Virus record (IMG/VR): IMGVR_UViG_3300005613_000197
Location: 1-37,529 of that record
Reading direction: 5' to 3' (one strand)
Source of the DNA: a virus
Length of the DNA: 37,529 nucleotides
Shown one piece after another: positions 960 to 10,457 of the stretch (its first letter is position 1; every line of letters starts with the position of its first letter). The translations under genes were made by a program, and so were the position numbers. The notes beneath the pieces are model-generated. The model was not told the DNA's origin. It searched no databases and saw nothing but the letters and a program-made list of their open reading frames with translations.

Positions 960-971
960 TATAACCGTTTT

Positions 972-1031
972 AAGTTAAGACACAGGTAAATTAGTACCTG
1001 TGTTTCGTCCTTTTGGACTCATCAGTTAACT
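972..1031 (-). ncRNA. Type I hammerhead ribozyme (self-cleaving RNA)
   Basis: On the minus strand every conserved core element is present in order. Stem I 5' arm AGTTAA (1031-1026); core CTGATGA (1025-1019); stem II GTCC (1018-1015), loop AAAA, GGAC (1010-1007); core GAAA (1006-1003); stem III CACAGGT (1002-996), 8-nt loop (995-988), ACCTGTG (987-981); cleavage triplet GUC ending at C979; stem I 3' arm TTAACT (978-973). All stem pairs are Watson-Crick: 6 bp in stem I, 4 bp in stem II, 7 bp plus the A15.1-U16.1 pair in stem III. Stem I is the open end, which defines type I. Predicted cleavage is between 979 and 978. It lies between a 34-aa ORF and the 176-aa gene. Confidence 0.93.
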
Positions 1032-1130
1032 ACGTTTACAGAAATGTTTTTCAGCGGTCGCCCTTGCGCCTTTGTTTTTATAAACTTTGTGTGTCTTAAA
1101 ACTGTAATAACCTACGATTTTAATCTCCAT
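1026..1130 (-). CDS. Small basic hypothetical protein (34 aa) ending in ribozyme stem I
   Basis: ATG at 1130 opens 34 codons to TAA at 1028-1026. The product MEIKIVGYYSFKTHKVYKNK... is Lys/Arg rich with one Cys near the C-terminus (HFCKRS). The stop codon bases are also the first three pairs of hammerhead stem I, so a ribosome terminating here would cover the ribozyme core. Upstream, 1163-1193 carries an element repeated before the 100-aa gene. No homologue recognised; coding status rests on start, length and placement only. Confidence 0.5.
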   Translation of the reverse strand: MEIKIVGYYSFKTHKVYKNKGARATAEKHFCKRS

Positions 1131-2616: not shown

Positions 2617-2880
2617 TTAATCGAATGAAAAAATTCGTTCTGTACGTTGTTGTTTGTCTGGTGAAGTACTTAGAAGCCTTACAACATTGTAACCTCGTGA
2701 AGTATAACCACGTTCCACATATTCTGAGCCACCTAAACTCCTAAAAAACTTTAGTGTTTCATCGCTTGTTATATTACGATATTGCTCTGTTGTTATCTCC
2801 TTTGTTTGCCGTTCCAGCTCCTGCCATGTTTTAGAAGTTCCTGGTTTGATACCATACTTTTTTTTGGTCATTGTTATCAT
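2617..2880 (-). CDS. Conserved small phage protein (87 aa)
   Basis: Start at ATG 2880 or the fourth codon (MTKKKYG). Contains SKTWQELERQ, ITTEQYRNITSDETLKFFRS, LGGSEYVERGYTSRGYNV and LLSTSPDKQQRTERIFSFD; the 'LGGSE', 'GY.vv.L.StsPd' and 'R.F.F' blocks recur in small uncharacterised phage proteins I know of. The first eleven codons lie inside a 123-bp tandem duplication, so an identical start is repeated 123 bp upstream. Confidence 0.8.
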   Translation of the reverse strand: MITMTKKKYGIKPGTSKTWQELERQTKEITTEQYRNITSDETLKFFRSLGGSEYVERGYTSRGYNVVRLLSTSPDKQQRTERIFSFD

Positions 2881-2901
2881 GGTGCTACTGTTTTGTTTGT
2901 G

Positions 2902-2932
2902 CTAAGATACAAATAATTATCGGTAAAATCAA
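2902..2932 (-). promoter_or_regulatory. Promoter for the 87-aa gene
   Basis: Minus strand TTG (2932-2930), 20 nt, TATCTTAG (2909-2902). An exact second copy lies at 3025-3055 because of the tandem duplication. Confidence 0.6.
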
Positions 2933-3003
2933 AAGTTATCTAAGTAAGTTAATAAATAAAAAGGCTTATTGATACCATACTTTTTTTTGGTCATTGTTAT
3001 CAT
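2929..3003 (-). CDS. Chimeric minigene made by the tandem duplication (24 aa)
   Basis: From ATG 3003 the frame reads the 11-residue start of the 87-aa protein (MITMTKKKYGI), a junction Asn, then KPFYLLTYLDNF, the C-terminus of the 101-aa protein, and its TGA stop. The duplication joined both parts in frame, and a full promoter and leader copy precede it (3025-3055). Whether the 24-aa peptide is made or matters is unknown; it may simply be a scar. Confidence 0.45.
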   Translation of the reverse strand: MITMTKKKYGINKPFYLLTYLDNF

Positions 3004-3024
3004 GGTGCTACTGTTTTGTTTGTG

Positions 3025-3055
3025 CTAAGATACAAATAATTATCGGTAAAATCAA
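3025..3055 (-). promoter_or_regulatory. Duplicated promoter copy for the chimeric minigene
   Basis: Identical to the promoter at 2902-2932 (TTG, 20 nt, TATCTTAG), overlapping the stop codon of the 101-aa gene. It gives the 87-aa gene two tandem promoters. Confidence 0.55.
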
Positions 3056-3357
3056 AAGTTATCTAAGTAAGTTAATAAATAAAAAGGCTTATCGACACGA
3101 TCATAATCTTTAAATCTATCAATAAGATTTAACATATTCTCTCTTGTATAGTCAACGCCCTCAATAGTGCAAGATCCATCCCCATAAATTAAAAAGGCAT
3201 TTCGTCTAAATACAATTTCCTTCACTACTTTTATAGCAGATTTTGGGGCTAACTCTTTAGTTAGTATCGTTGATATAGCTTCCTTTGCCGTTTCAGCTCT
3301 TACATTAATCGTGTAATGTCCGTTATCGTGTGCTAGTTCAATGTTAAACTGTTTCAT
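3052..3357 (-). CDS. Hypothetical protein (101 aa)
   Basis: ATG 3357 starts MKQFNIELAHDNGHYTINVR, followed by ETAKEAISTILTKELAP and AIKVVKEI. The 'fnie..hdnG.ytI.vrA...eeAi..i...E..P..Ai' pattern resembles small uncharacterised phage proteins. C-terminus KPFYLLTYLDNF is the part copied into the chimeric minigene. It has its own promoter at 3380-3410. Confidence 0.75.
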   Translation of the reverse strand: MKQFNIELAHDNGHYTINVRAETAKEAISTILTKELAPKSAIKVVKEIVFRRNAFLIYGDGSCTIEGVDYTRENMLNLIDRFKDYDRVDKPFYLLTYLDNF

Positions 3358-4655: not shown

Positions 4656-4733
4656 GCACAATGATAAACAAAATTGTAATTTATTGAAAATCAAGACAAT
4701 AAAATGATAATGAATTTTTTTTTGTGCTAACTA

Positions 4734-4764
4734 TTGACAATGTCAATTTAATTACCGTACTTTG
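4734..4764 (+). promoter_or_regulatory. Rightward cassette promoter 1 with palindromic operator
   Basis: TTG (4734-4736), 21-nt spacer, TACTTTG (4758-4764). The TTG begins a perfect 13-bp palindrome TTGACAATGTCAA (4734-4746), a likely repressor or activator site overlapping the -33 element. Bases 4715-4766 are repeated at 5119-5170. Confidence 0.65.
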
Positions 4765-4794
4765 TATTATACTTTAACAGTTAAACAAGACATT

Positions 4795-5091: not shown

Positions 5092-5127
5092 AAACCATAA
5101 CCAATAAAACGGTTATGGTTTTTTTTT
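5092..5127 (+). terminator. Rho-independent terminator after the 91-aa gene
   Basis: Perfect 11-bp stem AAACCATAACC (5092-5102) / GGTTATGGTTT (5111-5121), 8-nt loop, then a run of T. Nearly the same hairpin recurs at 6029-6063. Confidence 0.85.
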
Positions 5128-5137
5128 GTGCTAACTA

Positions 5138-5168
5138 TTGACAATGTCAATTTAATTACCGTACTTTG
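5138..5168 (+). promoter_or_regulatory. Rightward cassette promoter 2 with palindromic operator
   Basis: TTG (5138-5140), 21 nt, TACTTTG (5162-5168), and the same palindrome TTGACAATGTCAA (5138-5150). It starts just after the terminator T-run, so the terminator-promoter pair looks copied as one block. Confidence 0.65.
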
Positions 5169-5201
5169 TACTACATTATTTAATAACATAACTTACACAC
5201 T

Positions 5202-5540: not shown

Positions 5541-5701
5541 AAAGGAAACAATATAAAGCGGATCTAAAGGCTGCAATTATAAAGTATGGTTACTGGTCTA
5601 AAGAAGTAAATGAATTAAACAACAAGGCTTTAAAACACTTTAGTTTAGTAGTTTATACAAGCCTTCAAAATAGTGTTAGATCTGCGCTAGTTAAAAAATA
5701 G
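5537..5701 (+). CDS. Small basic hypothetical protein (54 aa)
   Basis: ATG 5537 overlaps the stop of the upstream gene (ATGA) and the frame runs 54 codons to TAG at 5699-5701. The product MKRKQYKADLKAAIIKYGYW... is strongly basic and helical, ending SVRSALVKK. Coupling to the basic 112-aa protein suggests the two act together. Function unknown. Confidence 0.65.
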   Translation: MKRKQYKADLKAAIIKYGYWSKEVNELNNKALKHFSLVVYTSLQNSVRSALVKK

Positions 5702-5713
5702 TTTTGCTAACAC

Positions 5714-5744
5714 TTGTATAAGTTAATTTAATTACCGTACTTTG
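5714..5744 (+). promoter_or_regulatory. Rightward cassette promoter 3
   Basis: TTG (5714-5716), 21 nt, TACTTTG (5738-5744) with the downstream block TTAATTTAATTACCGTACTTTGT shared in part with the other cassettes. The palindrome is replaced by a different inverted repeat, ACTT-GTAT-AAGT (5713-5724), so the operator may differ. Confidence 0.6.
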
Positions 5745-5782
5745 TGGTACATTAATTAATAACAACAAAAAACATTAAGGCA

Positions 5783-6361: not shown

Positions 6362-6484
6362 AAAAAAGGAACATTAAAAACATTCTTAAAACGCCCTTAA
6401 AATTCAAAAAAAAAAAGGAACATTAAAAACCTTTTCAACCACTAAAAAAACATTCTTAAAATTGAAAAAAGGAACATTAAAAAC
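6362..6484. repeat. Three iteron-like direct repeats
   Basis: AAAAAAGGAACATTAAAAAC occurs exactly at 6362-6381, 6411-6430 and 6465-6484 (spacing 49 and 54 bp). A second short unit, ACATTCTTAAAA, occurs twice between them (near 6380 and 6450). No hairpin is formed. Possible protein-binding array. Confidence 0.8.
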
Positions 6485-6502
6485 CATTATACAGTGTATA
6501 AA

Positions 6503-8502: not shown

Positions 8503-10457
<1,955 letters not shown>

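Follow-up and report, generated by a model that had tools for sequence, protein, structure and literature searches.

What is a complete self-cleaving ribozyme for when it lies between two small genes of a phage? The question arises in a viral DNA of 37,529 nucleotides (IMG/VR record IMGVR_UViG_3300005613_000197; the whole of this stretch is referred to as the window), in which a type I hammerhead had been predicted from the letters alone. Hammerheads of phages and prophages, including clusters that flank genes and active tandem arrays, were reported by Perreault et al. 2011 (PMC3088659), and the processing of long phage transcripts into gene- or operon-length mRNAs was already proposed there for prophage hammerheads. 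As both the ribozymes and the transcript-processing idea date from 2011, the element described here adds a new member to a class already known. The role of phage hammerheads has nevertheless been open since that year, and a review of 2017 still called it so (PMC6155905). By sequence and predicted fold, the element is a true type I hammerhead. We consider it likely that it sits at the junction of two cistrons in a crAss-like phage and constitutively cuts the leftward message between an ORF of 34 aa and a gene of 176 aa.

Sequence and predicted fold of the element

Read directly on the minus strand, positions 1031 to 973 form a canonical and complete type I hammerhead, AGUUAA CUGAUGA GUCC AAAA GGAC GAA ACACAGGUA CUAAUU UACCUGUGU C/UUAACU, where the slash marks the predicted cut (Table 1). 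What a type I hammerhead requires is present in the proper order: the CUGA-N-GA core (CUGAUGA), GAAA, and an NUH triplet, here GUC (G981, U980, C979). Stem I pairs 1031-1026 with 978-973 over 6 bp and ends in an outermost A-U pair, stem II pairs 1018-1015 with 1010-1007 (4 bp, AAAA loop at 1014-1011), and stem III pairs 1003-995 with 988-980, all nine pairs being perfect, around a loop at 994-989. G12 to A14 correspond to 1006-1004 and A15.1 to 1003. The RNA energy minimum is the hammerhead fold itself (-22.9 kcal/mol, z -3.4), and none of 200 shuffles was as good. By direct reading and by fold, the original prediction was therefore correct as to type, strand, core motifs and the three paired stems, and its cut between 979 and 978 agrees with the hammerhead numbering; of its extent, 972 to 1031, base 972 lies outside and 973 to 1031 is the element.

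Table 1. Coordinates of the hammerhead, its parts and the flanking genes in the window
Feature	Position	Strand	Basis
Upstream small ORF, 34 aa, stop inside stem I	1026..1130	-	sequence; putative coding
Type I hammerhead (open stem I; closed stems II and III)	973..1031	-	sequence, fold, model R1, sub-threshold Rfam
Stem I, 5' strand AGUUAA	1026..1031	-	sequence
Catalytic core C3-A9, CUGAUGA	1019..1025	-	sequence
Stem-loop II, GUCC-AAAA-GGAC	1007..1018	-	sequence and fold
G12-A13-A14 and A15.1 (GAAA)	1003..1006	-	sequence
Stem-loop III, 9 bp, 6-nt loop	980..1003	-	sequence and fold
Cleavage triplet GUC; predicted cut 979/978	979..981	-	sequence; cut position from hammerhead numbering
3' strand of stem I (UUAACU), with which the 5'-OH product would begin	973..978	-	sequence
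5'-OH leader predicted for the 176-aa gene, 19 nt	960..978	-	sequence
Downstream gene, 176 aa	429..959	-	PHROG 5162 (E 7.5e-12), a PHROG of no known function

Self-cleavage would be expected by analogy, the core being identical to that of hammerheads proven active elsewhere. According to PMC3088659, the tandem arrays of C. scindens, A. caulinodans and A. tumefaciens cut in vitro, that of A. tumefaciens also in E. coli, but not every hammerhead that matches the consensus is active (14 of 18 tested were). With regard to a possible tertiary contact between the periphery of stem I and loop II, a bulged extension of stem I folds in the window, but own flanks (-3.43 kcal/mol) pair no better than swapped ones (-3.39 kcal/mol), and a general lengthening of stem I past 6 bp is not supported.

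The hairpin might instead be a transcription terminator or attenuator and no ribozyme at all. A consensus scan indeed labels stem III as terminator-like on the plus strand, but shuffled sequence yields a mean of 0.9 such sites, so that one is no more than chance would give. Both flanking ORFs moreover lie on the minus strand, and on that strand the hairpin is not followed by a U-tract. A terminator would also leave the hammerhead core unexplained, and we regard this reading as extremely improbable.

Chance expectation and family models

A strict descriptor (stems of at least 5, 4 and 5 bp) has a single match in the window. It has none in a simulation of 175 Mb searched on both strands, where a loose descriptor (3/3/4) found three matches, equivalent to 0.0006 per window. 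Model R1, for which 43 type I hammerheads from viruses served as training set, gives the element 53.6 bits (E 3.9e-14), a score to be read with the element's own membership in that set in mind. Simulation, shuffles and model score all uphold the earlier statement that a random origin is very unlikely. No second hammerhead was found in the window, the next R1 match (13.8 bits, E 0.17) lacking a complete core.

A covariance search with the Rfam models, proposed together with the original prediction, gave matches below the curated thresholds. Hammerhead_1 (RF00163) matches the element with 26.5 bits and RAGATH-1-hammerhead (RF03152), the best complete Rfam match, with 31.5 bits, but both scores stay under the respective gathering scores of 34 and 56.3, and at curated thresholds Rfam has no match in the window. 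In four loci with about 30 hammerheads according to R1, Rfam reports two. Curated family thresholds thus overlook most phage hammerheads of such arrays, and the Hammerhead_1 cut-off that misses them is a limit set by the database and not a trait that defines the ribozyme.

A motif family in viral contigs

IMG/VR was scanned for the core plus stem II with the pattern CTGATGAGTCC-N3-7-GGACGAAAC, in which stem II is fixed. The pattern occurs in at least 119 stretches of viral contigs, and a control pattern with the AT of the core changed to TA had no match in the same scan. Stems I and III can also be formed in nearly all matches; by a simple pairing test, the 129 pattern sites (window included) comprise 90 type I and 32 type III hammerheads. 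Further members with different stem II sequences are found by R1. Across 149 model hits, 97% of the cells are paired and 563 double-sided changes stand against 129 in shuffles, counts that lean towards the structure because the alignment was fitted to it, with training sequences picked for pairing. Changes on both sides affect 13 of the 15 stem pairs in the motif-family alignment, and pairing falls to 29-39% when partner columns are slid by one. The expectation that the stems are conserved by compensatory change is thus borne out for the motif family; at the orthologous locus this check is not applicable, because the nearest relatives carry no ribozyme there.

Flanking genes and the stop-ribozyme-start layout

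The UAA of the 34-aa ORF (1028-1026) makes up the last three bases of the 5' strand of stem I, directly before C3, a feature absent from the original prediction. No relatives of this ORF turned up among phages or the retrieved loci, and the 176-aa protein has no Pfam match. Counted from the predicted cut at 978 to the ATG at 959, the leader of the 176-aa gene measures 19 nt, which fits the short leader of about 20 nt foreseen for it. The leader is A/U-rich and without a Shine-Dalgarno sequence; leaders lacking this sequence are expected in a Bacteroidetes host. A 34-nt element is present at 1159-1192 and 1834-1867 in copies that are 91% identical, each preceding a leftward ORF, one of which is the 34-aa ORF. 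With its minus-strand motif CTAAAATAAGCCTACGTA..ACACACCT, it is possibly a promoter or leader motif.

The arrangement around the ribozyme was compared among 93 non-redundant viral type I hits, using ORFs of at least 30 aa and, as controls, random positions and the antisense strand. An ATG-started ORF begins 10-40 nt past the cut in 59 of the 93 (random 20%, antisense 6%). In 55, an upstream ORF has its stop within -12 to +10 of C3 (random 11%, antisense 19%); stop codons supplied by the ribozyme itself are covered by the controls only in part. Both features coincide at 40 of the 93 sites as opposed to 2.6% of random positions, and a minimum ORF length of 80 aa still gives 35/93 and 3.5%. The window has both, with the start 19 nt past the cut and the stop at -3. 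The recurring layout is a stop in stem I, the cut, and a start codon about 20-30 nt further on; 22 of 29 type III members likewise lie within 45 nt ahead of a start codon. Found in many phages, this layout suggests that hammerheads cut long phage messages into single-gene pieces, and it provides the general processing proposal with exact predicted 5' ends. Relative to the published descriptions consulted, which represent the literature in part, the measured stop/start geometry is new and the arrays described below are longer.

The stop codon in stem I could also make the ribozyme a translation-sensitive switch. A ribosome terminating on the UAA in stem I, and thereby covering the core, would block the fold, and cutting would be tied to how much the upstream ORF is translated. 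The position of the UAA in the window, the 55 stops close to C3 and the UAA triplet that directly precedes C3 in 35 of the 93 hits are in line with this idea. The same overlap is accounted for by compact packing of stop codon and ribozyme, however, and the offset of the stop from C3 is not constant but varies from -12 to +1. As the 34-aa ORF moreover has no relatives in the sequences searched, a switch appears unlikely.

Proposed role of the ribozyme

Intercistronic mRNA cleavage is the likeliest role. A leftward polycistronic message would be cut co-transcriptionally and constitutively at the border of the 34-aa ORF and the 176-aa gene. The message of the latter would then begin with the 19-nt 5'-OH leader directly ahead of the start codon. 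The upstream piece would receive a new 3' end with a 2',3'-cyclic phosphate just past its stop codon, capped by stem-loops II and III, which would remain on this piece because stem I is the open stem. Each gene would become a separate mRNA, with stability and translation set independently. To judge from bacterial mRNA decay in general, the hairpins and the cyclic phosphate would protect the 3' end of the upstream piece, and the 5'-OH would protect the downstream piece from pyrophosphohydrolase- and RNase E-type decay. From the sequence, the predicted fold and the recurrent geometry, we infer that this molecule is catalytic, that both ORFs are co-transcribed, and that cutting takes place in the cell and would affect message stability. 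Unmasking of the start codon by cutting was also considered; in folding predictions, the unpaired probability of the start region barely shifts (from 0.63 to 0.59), and start-site unmasking is therefore unsupported.

Hammerhead arrays and apparent exchange of neighboring genes

Several contigs contain arrays of type I hammerheads on one strand, with eight members in G002, 15 in G065 and seven each in G066, G067 and G073, nearly all of them at gene junctions. In G002 (locus L136), the longest upstream ORF ends in a UAA immediately before C3 in six of eight cases, and the next ATG follows 20-22 nt past the cut in seven of eight. The 15 hammerheads of G065 (IMGVR_UViG_3300042884_000166, loci L252/L253) are spread over 39.8 kb, from a series of small genes across the gene of an N4-like RNA polymerase to replication genes. 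Single type I hammerheads in tRNA-containing regions were seen in GenBank records of two Schitoviridae (N4-like phages), Agrobacterium phage OLIVR1 (L222, 3959-4010) and Xanthomonas phage RiverRider (L223, ~1489-1550).

A nearly constant ribozyme is shared by six loci (L048, L101, L114, L258, L260 and L261). Upstream sequence differs between members of this family that have the same downstream gene, and L260 and L261 have the upstream end and the ribozyme in common but different downstream genes. These junctions look like products of recombination at the ribozyme. Hammerheads might accordingly serve as standard joints between phage gene cassettes: since the ribozyme brings a stop codon for the gene before it and a ready leader for the gene after it, an inserted gene would form its own mRNA, and the conserved core would offer the homology for neighbor exchange. 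We assign this idea a low probability. An anti-restriction protein comes after a hammerhead in L115, and an association of hammerheads with ardA is reported in PMC3088659.

The phage and its relatives

Over 92-94% of its length, the large terminase shares 32-34% identity with those of Cellulophaga phages phi17:2 and phi4:1 and of a Leptolyngbya phage, with weaker similarity to gut crAss-like phages. Searches with the 176-aa protein or the terminase alone retrieved no close relatives, and a profile from four aligned terminases led to 18 contigs whose terminases are about 47-55% identical. One of these contigs has 130,638 bp and a 46-base terminal repeat. Judged from the terminase relatives and this contig, the window therefore probably represents part of a crAss-like genome that measures about 130 kb. 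No paper on hammerheads in crAss-like phages was found in the literature searched.

Model R1, which gave hits in 13 of 13 records of a positive set, had none in the 18 same-family contigs or in 43 more distant crAss-like contigs, most of these contigs being fragments, or in four GenBank phage records. The one ortholog found of the 176-aa gene (37% identity) resides in the 130.6-kb relative, and its locus has no hammerhead. The place equivalent to that of the ribozyme is taken by a promoter-like TATCTTTAC whose end lies 22 nt ahead of the likely start codon. In this one pair compared, the short leader may be set by a promoter in the ortholog and by the ribozyme in the window. With no hit in the family contigs searched, this copy of the hammerhead looks dispensable. 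It could even have little or no function, being recently acquired or on its way out, and neutral since the cut is harmless. The lack of hits in the family contigs and at the orthologous locus would fit such a history, but all core bases and all pairs of the three stems are intact, which counts against decay, since mismatches should by then have appeared, and the stop/start geometry is the same as in the arrays. A ribozyme of little consequence is thus quite improbable, and intercistronic cleavage remains the preferred reading.

Elsewhere in the window, a GroEL-like chaperonin of 523 aa is encoded at 8667-10238 (PHROG 5725, E 7e-147). Two head-to-tail units of 123 bp at 2846-3091 are 100% identical and cover the start of an 87-aa ORF together with its promoter-like upstream region; they represent either a recent duplication or an assembly artefact. 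An intergenic repeat of 55 nt occurs at 4715-4769, 5119-5173 and 5695-5749, two copies of which contain TTGACA..TACTTTGTA, similar to a promoter of the Bacteroidetes type. At 6362-6492, a 28-nt repeat (AAAAAAGGAACATTAAAAAC...) occurs in three similar copies about 50 nt apart.

Comparison with known hammerheads

The closest counterparts belong to Hammerhead_1 (RF00163), including its phage and prophage members in PMC3088659, with which the element shares the core, the GUC triplet, the open stem I and the closed stems II and III, as well as the place between phage genes just before a start codon. Its stem III of 9 bp is longer than in most phage relatives, and its flanking genes are new. RAGATH-1 hammerheads (RF03152) have the same overall layout, with a stem I of 5 bp and a long stem III, but the upstream hairpin of that family is not clearly present in the window, where stem II has 4 bp. 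In Cellulophaga phage phi18:3 (KC821620), a hammerhead separates gp050 from gp049, and ardA follows about 0.9 kb downstream within the same gene run. This hammerhead resembles that of the window in belonging to a phage of a Bacteroidetes host, in its small genes, and in a leader that is A/U-rich and lacks a Shine-Dalgarno sequence ahead of the next ATG; it differs in its core (CUGAAGA), a leader of 34 nt, and an upstream stop just outside stem I. HHphage of haloviruses HF1 and HF2 differs in coming from an archaeal virus, in being a core variant and in a proposed salt-dependent activity (PMC3088659). It is similar in its place ahead of a start codon: HHphage lies 13 nt before that of a helicase, at the head of a message, and the 5' end of the transcript maps to within 3 nt of the cut.
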